A stretch of DNA of 64,000 nt, taken from IMG/VR virus record IMGVR_UViG_3300032331_002448, positions 1 to 64,000 of that record. One strand, given 5' to 3'. Shown here in pieces: positions 8,112 to 45,000 of this stretch. The notes under the pieces are model-generated. The model worked only from the letters and a program-made list of their open reading frames with translations. It was not told the DNA's origin and did no database searches. The DNA is from a virus. Both the position numbers and the translations under genes were made by a program. Every line of letters starts with the position of its first letter. Within the stretch, counting starts at the first letter, position 1.

Positions 8112-8181
8112 AAATGTTTACAATCTCTAACATGAAATTACGGTGCATACACCTTTCCAGTGCGCTAAGCTTGTAGCGGAT

Positions 8182-8254
8182 GCCCGAGTAGCCCAGCGGA
8201 AGAGGCAAGGACCTTAAAAGTCCTTCAGCGTGAGTTCAAATCTCACCTCGGGTA
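8182..8254 (+). tRNA. tRNA-Leu(UAA), short variable loop
   Basis: Cloverleaf drawn by hand: acceptor GCCCGAG/CTCGGGT, anticodon stem AGGAC/GTCCT around loop CTTAAAA (anticodon UAA), T arm GTGAG-TTCAAAT-CTCAC. The variable region is only about 5 nt (TCAGC), whereas leucine tRNAs are normally class II with a long variable arm, so charging with Leu is uncertain. No encoded CCA. Confidence 0.85.
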
Positions 8255-8257
8255 TTT

Positions 8258-8331
8258 CGGAACGTAGCTCAGCTTGGTAGAGCTTCGTCTTTGGGAGGCG
8301 AATGTCGCAGGTTCAAATCCTGTCGTTCCGA
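8258..8331 (+). tRNA. tRNA-Pro(UGG)
   Basis: Acceptor CGGAACG/CGTTCCG, D arm with AGCTTGGTAG, anticodon stem TCGTC/GGCGA with loop TTTGGGA (anticodon UGG), T arm GCAGG-TTCAAAT-CCTGT. Begins 3 nt after the tRNA-Leu, so the three tRNAs are surely one transcript. No encoded CCA. Confidence 0.92.
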
Positions 8332-8333
8332 CC

Positions 8334-8405
8334 GCCGGATTAGCTCAGTGGTAGAGCAACGCTTTTGTAAAGCGTAGGCCAACGGTTCAAATCCGTTATC
8401 CGGCT
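8334..8405 (+). tRNA. tRNA-Thr(UGU)
   Basis: Acceptor GCCGGAT/ATCCGGC, anticodon stem ACGCT/AGCGT with loop TTTGTAA (anticodon UGU), T arm AACGG-TTCAAAT-CCGTT. Begins 2 nt after tRNA-Pro. All three tRNAs read A- or U-ending codons, common in the AT-leaning phage genes and rarer in a GC-rich host. Confidence 0.92.
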
Positions 8406-42218: not shown

Positions 42219-42241
42219 GCCTTGTAGGGGATAGGCTCCCT
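42219..42241 (+). ncRNA. H-type pseudoknot A (family I)
   Basis: GCCT (42219-42222) pairs with AGGC (42233-42236) and AGGG (42226-42229) with CCCT (42238-42241), with GAT just before AGGC. Same layout as the seven copies downstream. Lies 17 nt before the GTG start of the first early gene. Confidence 0.7.
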
Positions 42242-42257
42242 TCGATTAGAGGTTATT

Positions 42258-42494
42258 GTGACTGAGACCAATTTGCTGGCCAAGAAAGCTCTTGCGAAGG
42301 CAAAAGAGATGGGCTGGGAAGCCCGCTGCCAGTATGACCAGTCTGACGTGTTGGATTGGTCTACGGTGGTGGCTTGGGAGCCAGGTGCATCCCGAGCCCG
42401 CTACATAACGTTTATTGAAGGAACCGAAGCCCGCAAGGGCTGGGTTCCGTTGAAGGATATTGAGCAAAGGTTGAAGCGTACTGATTGTTACTGA
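42258..42494 (+). CDS. Early small protein 1
   Basis: 78 residues from GTG 42258. N-terminal basic helix (LLAKKALAKAKEMGWEARCQY), then a beta-rich half with aromatic residues (YITFIEGTEARKGWVPL). AGAGG lies 6-10 nt upstream. First gene of the cassette series. Its 3' end overlaps the first strand of the three-way junction RNA. Function unknown. Confidence 0.7.
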   Translation: MTETNLLAKKALAKAKEMGWEARCQYDQSDVLDWSTVVAWEPGASRARYITFIEGTEARKGWVPLKDIEQRLKRTDCY

Positions 42495-42535
42495 GTGAAA
42501 GGCGTGAGCTGGGGGATCGAATCCCCCCACTTGGT
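42490..42535 (+). ncRNA. T-loop three-way junction 1
   Basis: Outer stem ACTGAGTG/CACTTGGT (42490-42497 with 42528-42535), small hairpin GGC-GTGA-GCT, and hairpin GGGGG-ATCGAAT-CCCCC (42511-42527) whose 7-nt loop resembles a tRNA T loop. The stop codon of the preceding gene lies in the outer stem. Most divergent of the five copies. Confidence 0.6.
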
Positions 42536-42537
42536 GT

Positions 42538-42562
42538 TGCCTTTAGCGGAGATAGGCACCGC
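42538..42562 (+). ncRNA. H-type pseudoknot B (family I)
   Basis: TGCCT (42538-42542) with AGGCA (42554-42558); GCGG (42546-42549) with CCGC (42559-42562); AGAT between. Three bases after the three-way junction and 15 nt before the GTG of the next gene. Confidence 0.8.
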
Positions 42563-42577
42563 GCAACGGAGAACACC

Positions 42578-42733
42578 GTGCAAGAAGGTACCGAAAGCTG
42601 GAAGATGGTTGTTGCACGCGCAGCAACTGCCGCCGTGCTGACGTATGTGACGCGGGAAGCTGTGAAAGCAGCGGCCCCGCATGTAAAGCAGTTCCTTGTT
42701 TCAAAGTTTATGAAGCAAGAAGAAGCTGCATGA
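42578..42733 (+). CDS. Early small protein 2
   Basis: 51 residues from GTG 42578, chosen because GGAG lies 8 nt upstream directly behind the pseudoknot; longer in-frame starts would run through the RNA structures. Basic, Ala/Val-rich amphipathic helix (WKMVVARAATAAVLTYVTRE) and a Lys-rich end. Followed immediately by hammerhead ribozyme 1. Function unknown; might be membrane-active. Confidence 0.65.
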   Translation: MQEGTESWKMVVARAATAAVLTYVTREAVKAAAPHVKQFLVSKFMKQEEAA

Positions 42734-42734
42734 T

Positions 42735-42795
42735 GGCGAAACCAGTGGGCGCAAGCCCCTGGTCGGGTAGCTTGAGATGCTGCCCCTGACGAGCC
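42735..42795 (+). ncRNA. Type II hammerhead ribozyme 1
   Basis: Core complete: GAAA (42738-42741), U63-C64 cleavage site (GGTC, cut after 42764), CUGACGA (42786-42792). Stem III CCAG/CTGG closed by GGGC-GCAA-GCCC; stem I GGGTAGC/GCTGCCC; stem II open, GGC (42735-42737) with GCC (42793-42795). Open stem II makes it type II, the form known from bacteria and phages. Starts one base after the stop codon of the preceding gene. Confidence 0.9.
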
Positions 42796-43166
42796 TCTCT
42801 TTATAGCTTAAATATACCTTTATATTTAACGAATCGCTATATATTATTAACTAAATAGAGATTAATGCCCTTAAATAATACTATCACCCCCTTAAAACCC
42901 AGTCGTACCAACCCCTCTCACGTTTGGAACGCCAGGTAGGAAGTAACTGCGCAACGTGCAGAACGTGCGCTGCGTACCGCCTGTGGAGAGAGTATCTTGA
43001 TGCTTTTGACACTTGATGCAGATTACTGCATTTAATCAGGAATTTTGCTTGGTAGTTAATTACCAGATGGTTGCCTCCAGGGAATTAACCCTAGATGCAG
43101 CCTTTAGGTTGCGATTAACAGCCTGAGCTTGTTGTCTGCATTGCAGGTAACTGAGTAAAGGTTTTT
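42796..43166 (+). promoter_or_regulatory. AT-rich non-coding stretch with candidate promoter
   Basis: No plausible gene in 371 nt. 42800-42890 is very AT-rich. TTGACA at 43006 with TTTAAT at 43031 (19-nt spacing) is a weak promoter candidate. Short hairpins follow: GGTA/TACC near 43055, AGGG/CCCT near 43083 and GCAGCC-ttta-GGTTGC near 43098. The end (TTGTTGT.TGCA… then CTGAGTAAAGG) resembles the leader before the 44779 gene. Confidence 0.4.
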
Positions 43167-43189
43167 TGCTCCAGGGAAGATAAGCACCC
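43167..43189 (+). ncRNA. H-type pseudoknot C (family I)
   Basis: TGCT (43167-43170) with AGCA (43183-43186); GGG (43174-43176) with CCC (43187-43189); AAGAT in the loop. Compared with the others, the first stem is TGCT/AGCA instead of TGCCT/AGGCA, a length change made on both strands. 17 nt before ATG 43207. Confidence 0.75.
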
Positions 43190-43206
43190 CACCGTTAGTT
43201 AAGACC

Positions 43207-43383
43207 ATGAAAGCTTTTGCTGTTGGTTTGATGATTGCTGCAGGTTTCACAGCTGTAGCTACTGCACCGATCATGATGCGTAGCACCTATGAAGCTACTG
43301 CTGCCAGGTGCATTGCAAGAGGACTGCCTGTTACGGAAGCAACAGGTTATCTCAAGCTTTGTAACGCCACATTGAACAACTGA
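43207..43383 (+). CDS. Early small secreted/membrane protein
   Basis: 58 residues, ATG 43207 to TGA 43383. Begins with a signal-like segment (MKAFAVGLMIAAGFTAVATAP) and continues with a short soluble part containing two Cys (ARCIARGL, KLCNATLNN). Could be periplasmic or membrane anchored. The last codons and stop form one strand of the following three-way junction. Confidence 0.65.
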   Translation: MKAFAVGLMIAAGFTAVATAPIMMRSTYEATAARCIARGLPVTEATGYLKLCNATLNN

Positions 43384-43426
43384 GTCCGTCAAAGCGGCGT
43401 GCCTGGGTGCAAAACCCAGGCCAGTT
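43378..43426 (+). ncRNA. T-loop three-way junction 2
   Basis: Outer stem AACTG/CAGTT (43378-43382 with 43422-43426), hairpin CCG-TCAAAG-CGG, hairpin GCCTGGG-TGCAAAA-CCCAGGC (43401-43421). The stop codon TGA is inside the structure. Immediately followed by AT and pseudoknot D. Confidence 0.75.
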
Positions 43427-43428
43427 AT

Positions 43429-43453
43429 TGCCTCCAGAGGAGATGGGCACCTC
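43429..43453 (+). ncRNA. H-type pseudoknot D (family I)
   Basis: TGCCT (43429-43433) with GGGCA (43445-43449); GAGG (43437-43440) with CCTC (43450-43453). The second stem is GAGG/CCTC where most others have GCGG/CCGC: a compensatory change. Confidence 0.85.
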
Positions 43454-43470
43454 ACCAGCAGGAGAACACT

Positions 43471-43635
43471 GTGCTTGACACAGTAACAGTCGATCAGGAC
43501 GAATATTACGAGCTTCTGCCTTGCGGTGGAGTTGTCGTAATACTGTACCGAGAATCGGCGCAAAACTCTGGCTATACGGTCGAAGAGTGTGATTTTGCAC
43601 TCTACGGACCTGTAGAAAGAGAGGCTGAGCCGTAA
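43471..43635 (+). CDS. Early small protein 4
   Basis: 54 residues from GTG 43471, with AGGAG 7 nt upstream. Acidic, mixed beta protein (QDEYYELLPCGGVVVILYRES) ending in EREAEP. The in-frame upstream ATG at 43399 would read through the pseudoknot and is rejected. Function unknown. Confidence 0.65.
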   Translation: MLDTVTVDQDEYYELLPCGGVVVILYRESAQNSGYTVEECDFALYGPVEREAEP

Positions 43636-43670
43636 AGACGGCCTAGGGAGGTTTGATGCCTCCCACAGCT
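43623..43670 (+). ncRNA. T-loop three-way junction 3
   Basis: Outer stem GGCTG/CAGCT, hairpin CCGT-AAAG-ACGG (43630-43641), hairpin GGGAGG-TTTGATG-CCTCCC (43646-43664). The last four codons and stop of the preceding gene are part of it. Two bases separate it from pseudoknot E. Confidence 0.75.
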
Positions 43671-43672
43671 AT

Positions 43673-43697
43673 TGCCTACAGCGGAGATAGGCACCGC
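43673..43697 (+). ncRNA. H-type pseudoknot E (family I)
   Basis: TGCCT (43673-43677) with AGGCA (43689-43693); GCGG (43681-43684) with CCGC (43694-43697). Closest to the consensus. CAGGAG follows at 43702 and ATG at 43715. Confidence 0.85.
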
Positions 43698-43714
43698 ACA
43701 CCAGGAGCACCCTG

Positions 43715-43966
43715 ATGACCACCTTTGAGTCTGTGAGCGAGCAACTGCACCCGCAGTCCGCCTCGGTGTTTTATGCCACTGAGGAAGCAATGAAGAACAT
43801 TGTTGCTAGCGATGAAATTGCTACGCGGAACAAGGTGATTGCTGTTGTTGCTGTTGCTGCAGGTGTTGCTGCAGGTGTTGCATACTTTGCAGCACGTTCA
43901 AGATTGAAGACCCGAGTCGCTGATCTAATGAAGAAGACAGTAACTACAACTGCTGAGTCCGTTTAA
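43715..43966 (+). CDS. Early small membrane protein
   Basis: 83 residues. Soluble N-terminal half, one transmembrane helix at about 48-63 (VIAVVAVAAGVAAGVAYFAA), short basic end (RSRLKTRVADLMKK). CAGGAG lies upstream. A membrane-targeted early protein may act on the host envelope or photosynthetic membranes; inference. Confidence 0.7.
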   Translation: MTTFESVSEQLHPQSASVFYATEEAMKNIVASDEIATRNKVIAVVAVAAGVAAGVAYFAARSRLKTRVADLMKKTVTTTAESV

Positions 43967-43998
43967 GCGGCCAGGGAGGTGCAATGCCTCCCGTCAGC
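43952..43998 (+). ncRNA. T-loop three-way junction 4
   Basis: Outer stem GCTGA/TCAGC, hairpin CCG-TTTAAG-CGG, hairpin GGGAGG-TGCAATG-CCTCCC (43974-43992). The outer stem differs at several positions from copies 2, 3 and 5 but stays paired. Confidence 0.8.
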
Positions 43999-44001
43999 TA
44001 T

Positions 44002-44026
44002 TGCCTACAGCGGAGATGGGCACCGC
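44002..44026 (+). ncRNA. H-type pseudoknot F (family I)
   Basis: TGCCT (44002-44006) with GGGCA (44018-44022); GCGG (44010-44013) with CCGC (44023-44026), AGAT between. 17 nt before ATG 44044. Confidence 0.85.
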
Positions 44027-44043
44027 ACACACCTTGAGGTTTT

Positions 44044-44277
44044 ATGACCAGCAACACGTTGGTTTATGCTGTCCTTGGCCGTATTTATAGTGAATGCGGT
44101 TCAGATGAGACTTGGATTCATTCTGTTCACGCAAGTGAAGAAAGTGCGTACGAGCAACGAGCTACTTTAATTAAAGAGTCTTTGCAGAATAAACTTGCTG
44201 AAATTGAAGCGGATAACAAAGTTTTTATTGATATGAGGAAGTATTGGAGTGTTGCAAGCTATGAACTAATCCGTTAA
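44044..44277 (+). CDS. Early small protein 6
   Basis: 77 residues. Looks like a small alpha/beta domain: TLVYAVLGRIYSECGSDETW, then HASEESAYEQRATLIKESLQNKL, a pattern often seen in phage proteins that display a side-chain-rich helix. TTGAGG lies 7-12 nt upstream. Function unknown. Ends within the fifth three-way junction. Confidence 0.7.
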   Translation: MTSNTLVYAVLGRIYSECGSDETWIHSVHASEESAYEQRATLIKESLQNKLAEIEADNKVFIDMRKYWSVASYELIR

Positions 44278-44310
44278 AGCGGGTGGCCAGGTGCAAACCC
44301 TGGCCTAGTT
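44264..44310 (+). ncRNA. T-loop three-way junction 5
   Basis: Outer stem AACTA/TAGTT, hairpin CCG-TTAAAG-CGG, hairpin GGCCAGG-TGCAAAC-CCTGGCC (44285-44305). AACTA/TAGTT against AACTG/CAGTT in copy 2 is a direct compensatory pair. Confidence 0.8.
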
Positions 44311-44311
44311 A

Positions 44312-44339
44312 TTGCCCTGTTCGCGCCTTGGGCAAGCGC
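44312..44339 (+). ncRNA. H-type pseudoknot G (family I, variant)
   Basis: TTGCCC (44312-44317) with GGGCAA (44330-44335); GCGC (44323-44326) with GCGC (44336-44339). The fold is kept but the GGAGAT core is replaced, so it may be a relaxed or differently tuned copy. Confidence 0.6.
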
Positions 44340-44353
44340 ACCGCCTTGTAGCC

Positions 44354-44602
44354 GTGACTGAAGTTTCGGTGTACAACGTCATCCAGGATCTTCGTATCCT
44401 GGCACGAAGAGACTGGCCTGCTGGTCCTGTGGATCAGCAGTTAGAGTCCTTTAGGCTGCAGTTCTTCACTGCGTTTGAGCAGTGGATGGACGGCGCCACG
44501 GTAGATCTTGTTCCATTTATGGAGCACGCTACCAGAGTGGTCTCGGTCAATCGAGACCTTGTGCGCTGGCTTAAGCGTAAGCTTGAGCAAGACGCTGTGT
44601 AG
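44354..44602 (+). CDS. Early small protein 7
   Basis: 82 residues from GTG 44354; the longer in-frame start at 44312 lies in the pseudoknot. Helical and charged: TEVSVYNVIQDLRILARRDW, then LESFRLQFFTAFEQWM, then a Lys/Arg-rich end. The stop codon TAG provides the first bases of hammerhead 2. Function unknown. Confidence 0.7.
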   Translation: MTEVSVYNVIQDLRILARRDWPAGPVDQQLESFRLQFFTAFEQWMDGATVDLVPFMEHATRVVSVNRDLVRWLKRKLEQDAV

Positions 44603-44670
44603 GCGAAACTGGGAGCTGTGCTTGCATGGTTCCCGGTCTGCCAGGTTGACGCCCTGGCACTGATGAGCCT
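44601..44670 (+). ncRNA. Type II hammerhead ribozyme 2
   Basis: GAAA (44605-44608); stem III CTGGGA/TCCCGG; cleavage site UC, cut after 44638; stem I TGCCAGG/CCTGGCA; CUGAUGA (44660-44666); open stem II AGGC (44601-44604) with GCCT (44667-44670). Every conserved core nucleotide of the hammerhead is present. Overlaps the stop codon of the preceding gene. Confidence 0.93.
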
Positions 44671-44725
44671 GTCAGTAAACCTTGGTTACTTGTTGTTGCA
44701 ATGAGTAACCGAGTAAAGGATATTA

Positions 44726-44750
44726 GCCTCCTAGGGAGATAGGCACCCTA
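44726..44750 (+). ncRNA. H-type pseudoknot H (family I)
   Basis: GCCT (44726-44729) with AGGC (44741-44744); TAGGG (44732-44736) with CCCTA (44746-44750). The second stem is a further compensatory variant and is extended by a pair. A hairpin GGTTACT/AGTAACC lies just upstream (about 44688-44710). Confidence 0.85.
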
Positions 44751-44778: not shown

Positions 44779-45000
44779 ATGAGCAAAAGAAGGTATTACT
44801 TTTCTTTGCTCACTATGAGCACCGCAGCTGCCATTGTTTATGTTGGTGGCATTCGCTTGCAAGAACAGAGTAATGCTGCTGCAGTTAAACACTGTACTGG
44901 TATTTACAAAGTTGTATCAAGCTCTACAGCGTTTGGTCCTGTCAAACGTTGTGTTTCTATTGTTCAATCTGACGGTCCTTCACTTCCTTTGCAACCATGA
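44779..45000 (+). CDS. Small membrane/secreted protein
   Basis: 73 residues: basic start (MSKRRYYF), hydrophobic helix (SLLTMSTAAAIVYVGGI), soluble tail with two Cys (KHCTGIYK, KRCVSIVQ). Signal-anchor topology, reminiscent of the protein at 43207. Overlaps the next gene by 4 nt (ATGA). Function unknown. Confidence 0.7.
   Translation: MSKRRYYFSLLTMSTAAAIVYVGGIRLQEQSNAAAVKHCTGIYKVVSSSTAFGPVKRCVSIVQSDGPSLPLQP

Follow-up and report, generated by a model that had tools for sequence, protein, structure and literature searches.

The stretch considered here (the window) is positions 1 to 64,000, that is 64,000 nucleotides (nt), of the virus record IMGVR_UViG_3300032331_002448. The full record has 84,149 base pairs (bp), and a virion structural protein encoded on it has a single match among phage records, to Synechococcus phage S-EIV1 (51% identity over 99%). 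Around 42219-44750 the window carries a row of small open reading frames (ORFs) separated by structured RNA elements. A first-pass annotation had placed eight pseudoknots here, each ahead of a small ORF, and every one can be read from the sequence at its assigned position. At most junctions, though, the element proves to be larger, beginning about 45-50 nt further upstream with a tRNA-like module, and some of the junctions contain a type II hammerhead ribozyme. We think it probable that these elements are RNA-processing marks, at which a long phage transcript would be cut into separate mRNAs. The features are as follows (S1 and S2, pseudoknot stems; P1, outer acceptor-type stem of the tRNA-like module).

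42219-42241, + strand: pseudoknot 1, first of the array, without a tRNA-like part ahead; S1 42219-42222/42233-42236 (GCCT/AGGC), S2 42226-42229/42238-42241 (AGGG/CCCT); read from sequence
42258-42494, + strand: small ORF, 78 amino acids (aa), GTG start; stop overlaps the following tRNA-like element
42490-42535, + strand: tRNA-like element, class B; T-loop ATCGAAT 42516-42522, T stem 42511-42515/42523-42527; 12 of 12 pairs; covariance model match 42490-42562, E 3e-5
42538-42562, + strand: pseudoknot 2; S1 42538-42542/42554-42558 (TGCCT/AGGCA), S2 42546-42549/42559-42562 (GCGG/CCGC); sequence, pattern and covariance model
42578-42733, + strand: small ORF, 51 aa, GTG start; reading frame and stop, start picked 3′ of the pseudoknot
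42735-42795, + strand: type II hammerhead ribozyme; descriptor scan (0 in shuffled sequence), absent from the Rfam listing; predicted self-cleavage between 42764 and 42765
43167-43189, + strand: pseudoknot 3; S1 43167-43170/43183-43186 (TGCT/AGCA), S2 43174-43176/43187-43189 (GGG/CCC); sequence
43207-43383, + strand: small ORF, 58 aa; reading frame
43378-43427, + strand: tRNA-like element; P1 43378-43382/43422-43426, T stem 43401-43407/43415-43421, T-loop 43408-43414, discriminator-like A 43427; predicted cut between 43427 and 43428
43378-43453, + strand: covariance model match to the preceding element plus its pseudoknot; 74.7 bits, E 8e-14
43429-43453, + strand: pseudoknot 4; S1 43429-43433/43445-43449 (TGCCT/GGGCA), S2 43437-43440/43450-43453 (GAGG/CCTC); sequence and covariance model
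43471-43635, + strand: small ORF, 54 aa, GTG start; reading frame, start by pseudoknot position
43623-43671, + strand: tRNA-like element; T-loop TTTGATG; predicted cut between 43671 and 43672; covariance model match 43623-43697, 62.1 bits
43673-43697, + strand: pseudoknot 5; S1 TGCCT/(A,G)GGCA (given jointly with 44002), S2 GCGG/CCGC; sequence, pattern and covariance model
43715-43966, + strand: small ORF, 83 aa; reading frame
43951-44000, + strand: tRNA-like element; T-loop TGCAATG; predicted cut between 44000 and 44001; covariance model match 43951-44026, 69.1 bits
44002-44026, + strand: pseudoknot 6; S1 TGCCT/(A,G)GGCA (given jointly with 43673), S2 GCGG/CCGC; sequence, pattern and covariance model
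44044-44277, + strand: small ORF, 77 aa; reading frame
44264-44311, + strand: tRNA-like element; T-loop TGCAAAC; predicted cut between 44311 and 44312; covariance model match 44264-44344, 69 bits
44312-44339, + strand: pseudoknot 7 (variant); S1 44312-44317/44330-44335 (TTGCCC/GGGCAA), S2 44323-44326/44336-44339 (GCGC/GCGC); sequence
44354-44602, + strand: small ORF, 82 aa, GTG start; reading frame, start by pseudoknot position
44599-44672, + strand: type II hammerhead ribozyme; descriptor scan; RF02276 match 44601-44674 (30.3 bits, E 0.04), short of the 37-bit gathering score; predicted self-cleavage between 44638 and 44639
44726-44750, + strand: pseudoknot 8; S1 44726-44729/44741-44744 (GCCT/AGGC), S2 44732-44736/44746-44750 (TAGGG/CCCTA); sequence and pattern
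44779-45000, + strand: small ORF, 73 aa, the final gene with a pseudoknot leader; reading frame

Array genes go on beyond 44750, there without a pseudoknot leader.

The pseudoknot sequence exceeds chance occurrence and is confined to one strand: over the whole 84-kb record, GGAGATRGGCACC with at most one mismatch is found five times on the + strand, and neither on the − strand nor in a reversed control. A looser pattern gave 188 distinct matches, with stem 1 mostly TGCCT/AGGCA (62), TGCCC/GGGCA (46) or TACCC/GGGTA (45), and stem 2 mostly GCGG/CCGC (152) or GTGG/CCAC (22). Loop 3, of just 0-1 nt, is atypical for an H-type pseudoknot and too short to span stem 1 in a classical coaxial arrangement, so that the two helices may stack non-classically or alternate. 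Among the 166 matches with stem 1 fully paired, 164 have a 3-nt loop 1, and this constancy speaks for a single fold over alternating helices.

When the sequences 5′ of the pseudoknot are lined up, a second structured module appears, ending 2-3 bases ahead of it. This tRNA-like module precedes most pseudoknots and overlaps the stop codon of the upstream gene. It is a three-way junction, made up of P1, a small D-arm-like hairpin (of the CCGTTAAAGCGG or GGCGTGATGCC types) and a T-arm with a 7-nt loop. P1 and the T stem adjoin on the 3′ strand and sum to 12 bp (5+7, 6+6 or 7+5), which is also the combined length of acceptor and T stem in tRNA. At least 11 of these 12 pairs can form in 58 of 68 sequences, as against 1.2% of shuffles, and P1 is fully paired in 106 of 156, where swapping 3′ strands among copies gives a mean of 59.6 (maximum 70). 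A 13th pair is present in just 23 of 106, so the helix ends at 12 bp. A hairpin with a 7-nt loop lies at the correct distance in 158 of 173 copies, and almost all of its loops read NNCRANN, with C56 and A58 in place; the types seen (TGCAAAC, ATCGAAT, and TTCRANY, e.g., TTCGATT) are compatible with a tRNA T-loop. Searches with ARAGORN and RF00005 for a tRNA with an anticodon arm recognized none of the elements in the window or the S-EIV1 array. One array element in another locus (L150:13268-13362) is called by ARAGORN as an unassignable tRNA and has a TTGCCACACGCTGAG cap hairpin directly 3′; it is perhaps an intermediate between tRNA and mimic.

Covariation was scored on 49 distinct class A copies, picked by conserved landmarks at fixed spacing with no requirement for P1 or T-stem pairing. 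For the structure including the pseudoknot, 99.0% of cells are paired and 14 of 24 pairs vary on both sides; the covariation score is 0.435 versus 0.156 in shuffles (0 of 500 reach it), and shifted partners abolish the signal. Two-sided changes occur in most T-stem pairs and, in the pseudoknot, at pairs 51-69, 54-66, and 59-73; together with the stem variants, these back each of the two crossing helices. The earlier claim of a selected RNA fold with both stems covarying is thus borne out once homologues are added, and the two-part RNA structure is near certain. A covariance model finds five copies in the window at E < 1e-4 plus a weak sixth (44666-44749), two in the isolate S-EIV1 (92.5 and 63 bits), and 2-6 per record in 20 virus records chosen as known carriers.

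Members of the family are carried by over 100 viral contigs as well as by S-EIV1: in IMG/VR the full pseudoknot pattern is found in 65 other viral stretches, and the looser one in at least 119. Two pattern scans of genome contigs of about 85,000 species gave no match of cellular origin. Rfam has no family for the element; near or above threshold, the window yields only three genuine tRNAs and the sub-threshold hammerhead. S-EIV1 (L071) has further repeated, structured-looking sequences between small genes, on the minus strand at about 41480, 40790, 39540, and 38810, again without an Rfam match; their motifs are CCCTGGGC..TCCAT..TAAGTCCCAGG and GTCCTGAGTATGAC..TTAAA.

What else fills the same position is informative. 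Both window hammerheads combine the core motifs CTGANGA, GAAA, and TH with a type II arrangement of stems I-III, and lie immediately 3′ of a stop codon; over the collected loci and the window, the descriptor scan found 10 distinct examples (none in shuffled sequence), one of which (in L010) lies immediately 5′ of a pseudoknot. The possibility that the tRNA-like part is itself a hammerhead was rejected, since neither a GAAA nor a CTGANGA core is present. Searching phage records with a consensus also brought up T7-like cyanophages, where the space between the major capsid gene and the gene upstream of it holds a tRNA-like element (S-SBP1, S-CBP42, S45-C4, S-TIP37, P-GSP1, P-SSP7, P-SSP2, S-TIP28, and Syn5; a match in S-CBP2 is doubtful; search background 2.2% per region). 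Phage NATL1A-7 has an annotated tRNA-Gly in this pre-capsid slot, whose last base immediately precedes TTGGC, a boundary like that of the mimics; the loci with a genuine tRNA-Gly in place of the mimic are L219:419-489 (ahead of the capsid gene) and, in a viral contig, L308:6154-6224, both ending directly 5′ of TTGGC. Eight other T7-like cyanophage loci have a pre-capsid hairpin with a variable stem and an invariant 15-nt loop, CACCTCAGAGTCGGA (L203:553, L206:549, L207:556, L211:478, L212:432, L213:437, L216:465, and L218:564), which is also present in many viral contigs from L220 on. There are 110 distinct copies of this hairpin, 76 of them with TTGG or a near variant beginning 11 nt past the loop; no Rfam match was found in the loci tested, and it is possibly another cutting signal or ribozyme. 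Most pre-capsid elements then carry related leaders starting TTGG or TTTGG. This exchange of ribozyme, genuine tRNA and mimic in one slot is the main argument for cleavage: since a self-cutting ribozyme or a real tRNA takes its place in other phages, the element probably marks an mRNA cut site.

The proposal that the leader is reused ahead of unrelated genes also held up. The small proteins encoded 3′ of class A elements number 154 distinct sequences in 49 families, with both leader types found in 8 of the 19 multi-member families; a Pfam search of the small ORFs gave no match above cut-off. Such cassette-like arrays, with gene families paired to different leader types, are what might be expected of recombination sites acting as folded DNA, like integron attC sites, and shuffling gene cassettes. 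We consider this very improbable. Acceptor-stem pair 2-46 is AU in 22 copies, GU in 18, and GC in 9, but never AC, and G-U pairs point to sense-strand RNA; moreover, the tRNA geometry, the hammerheads and the exchange with tRNA would be meaningless at the DNA level.

The position of the elements relative to the flanking genes also raises the possibility of a translational device, which would couple termination to the next initiation or exert riboswitch-like control, without cleavage. The upstream stop codon mostly ends 5-6 nt within P1 (86 of 136 scored copies) and so lies inside the element, while most copies have the start codon 14-18 nt 3′ of the pseudoknot, where it frequently shares a small hairpin with the Shine-Dalgarno sequence. 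This arrangement is seen at window 42564-42580 and in many relatives (CACGGAGAACACCGTG, CAGGAGATTCCTGTG); other copies have a CA-rich unstructured leader without a Shine-Dalgarno sequence. Such a device would hardly be exchanged with hammerheads and genuine tRNA, however; the T7-like copies are separated from the start codon of the capsid gene by about 118-173 nt, and the downstream genes are unrelated. Nor does anything in the window or the S-EIV1 array match a known riboswitch. The first-pass annotation, which took the pseudoknots for control leaders, had named glutamine-I/II riboswitches as the class to compare, a membership that is not supported: cmscan of the window to E 10 gives neither RF01739 nor RF01704, and the S-EIV1 array gives no match to either up to E 1. 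That reading overlooked both hammerheads and the tRNA-like half; with these included, RNA processing rather than ligand sensing becomes the likely function, and we regard a purely translational role as unlikely.

The glutamine-II riboswitch, or Downstream-peptide RNA (RF01704), is itself a pseudoknot fold and, like the present element, a cyanophage RNA found ahead of short ORFs. It differs in being unmatched in the window, and in T7-like cyanophages it is a separate RNA 5′ of the tRNA-like RNA or the equivalent hairpin: at L203:209, L208:335, L211:204, L213:237, and L216:333, RF01704 riboswitches lie 5′ of the small ORF that precedes it.

The boundary between the two modules is strongly conserved. 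Of the 171 class A copies, 152 have an A directly 3′ of the 12-bp stack, and all 171 have T (U) at the position after that. What comes next varies: the tRNA-like part is followed by a pseudoknot in 71 copies and by a pseudoknot-like form in 14, while nearly all of the other 86 have a plain hairpin opening with the identical TGCC. The 5′ cap is thus exchangeable, a pseudoknot or a plain hairpin standing immediately 3′ of the boundary. In addition, pseudoknot 1, which opens the array in the window, lacks a tRNA-like part. From both observations we assign the tRNA-like module to the end of the upstream gene and the cap to the beginning of the downstream one.

Among host tRNA-maturation enzymes, RNase Z is the most likely candidate for a cut at this boundary. 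It cleaves right after the discriminator base and is suppressed by a C there (PMC7479834); here an unpaired discriminator-like base follows the stack and the trailer never begins with C. The window encodes three phage tRNAs (Leu, Pro, and Thr, at 8181-8405) without an encoded CCA, so that the phage presumably already relies on host RNase Z-type 3′ maturation. Several points weigh against the tRNA-mimic and RNase Z interpretation. T-loop position 55 is frequently G in place of U, and class B carries A at position 54; both sides of the putative G19-C56 contact between D- and T-loops are almost invariant, and automatic D-loop assignment is ambiguous; and three of the eight window pseudoknots (42219, 43167, and 44726) have no tRNA-like part immediately 5′. 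A serious difficulty is that archaeal RNase Z requires a mature 5′ end (PMC7479834), whereas the 5′ side here is an entire mRNA, and a prior RNase P cut would mostly strip the upstream stop codon.

RNase P might instead be the main enzyme, cutting 5′ of the acceptor stem, in which case the mimic would stay on the downstream mRNA, or a small RNA would be excised if both enzymes act. Both enzymes grip the tRNA elbow, and RNase P likewise measures the acceptor/T stack (PMC4810234); it cleaves tRNA-like structures and some mRNAs (PMC12710915), and, with the helix ending at 12 bp, the base 5′ of P1 is usually unpaired. Its cut would nevertheless precede the upstream stop codon in most copies, giving a nonstop mRNA, and would leave the fixed 3′-side boundary unexplained. 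We rank it second, as a rather doubtful alternative, because of the usual loss of the stop codon.

With RNase Z as the enzyme, the following scheme can be suggested. The first part, a minimal tRNA mimic without an anticodon arm, replaced by a type II hammerhead at some of the junctions, would close the upstream mRNA; the second, a compact pseudoknot or plain hairpin leading into the start-codon region, would open the downstream one. The polycistronic phage transcript would be cut between them, by hammerhead self-cleavage or by the host enzyme acting after the discriminator-like base (between A and UUGCC), to give single-gene mRNAs structured at both the 3′ and the 5′ end. Such a cut would retain the upstream stop codon and leave the pseudoknot or hairpin at the extreme 5′ end of the next mRNA. 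Structures of this kind at a 5′ terminus impede 5′-end-dependent decay, and the ends might be protected in this way.

A short U-containing linker flanked by structured caps would also suit a pure mRNA-stability block, acting against RNase J or 3′ exonucleases, with RNase E cutting the unpaired bases between the modules. This would leave unexplained the 12-bp tRNA ruler, the T-loop and the genuine tRNA in the slot, and seems improbable. Other signals were considered as well. A terminator scan marks two of the T-arms, but these were rejected, the T runs being weak and the hairpin merely the T-arm of a bigger fold; a promoter scan shows no excess. An RNase III site as in T7 was also rejected, the 12-bp stack being short for that enzyme.

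Cutting the message with RNA elements would have precedents. Phage hammerheads flanking single genes have been proposed, and partly shown, to split transcripts into gene-sized mRNAs (Perreault et al., 2011; PMC3088659). These clustered phage and prophage hammerheads resemble the present elements in flanking small genes of changing identity, and their type II form also occurs in the window; they differ in that most junctions here lack a ribozyme core and are tRNA-like, so that an enzyme would be needed, and a pseudoknot or hairpin cap does not seem to feature in their description.

A second precedent is the tRNA punctuation of mitochondria, in which tRNA-shaped RNAs between genes mark the cuts in a polycistronic transcript. 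Here, in contrast, the mimics are reduced and mostly not called as tRNAs, belong to bacterial viruses and overlap stop codons, and the processing is predicted.

The tRNA-like structures of turnip yellow mosaic virus (TYMV) and other viruses, on which RNase P acts (PMC12710915; PMC4810234), similarly join elbow and acceptor mimicry to a pseudoknot. They form the 3′ end of RNA genomes, finish in CCA and hold the pseudoknot within the acceptor arm, while in the cyanophage element the pseudoknot comes after the acceptor arm and is part of the next mRNA.

The MALAT1 mascRNA (RF01684) is tRNA-like but does not function as a tRNA; it guides RNase P and RNase Z to their cuts in a longer transcript. 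It derives from a eukaryotic long non-coding RNA and has no statistical homology to the cyanophage element: the Syn5 copy scores 23.4 bits against RF01684 (E 0.78), a weak and non-significant match. To our knowledge, message splitting by a tRNA-maturation enzyme as a general system is known only from organelles. In the literature searched, in which subscription papers were only partly covered, there was no earlier description of tRNA-like elements in cyanophages or of tRNA punctuation in phages; tRNA punctuation and tRNA mimicry are both already known, but their use as phage-operon punctuation is new relative to that literature.

Whether cyanophage tRNA mimics are a general mRNA-cutting signal, a counterpart of mitochondrial tRNA punctuation, seems to us an evenly balanced question. 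Such a signal would share its slot with genuine tRNAs, hammerheads and at least one more conserved hairpin, have an exchangeable 5′ cap, and extend from S-EIV1-like to T7-like phages (P-SSP7, Syn5). The predictions are at the level of single nucleotides and testable in existing infection systems (S-EIV1, P-SSP7, and Syn5), and the modules could act as compact operon-splitting parts in cyanobacteria. If the reading is correct, a function would be assigned to a structured RNA family absent from Rfam, the tRNA gene ahead of the NATL1A-7 capsid gene would be accounted for, and a widespread group of cyanobacterial viruses would be seen to split its messages by means of a host tRNA-maturation enzyme.

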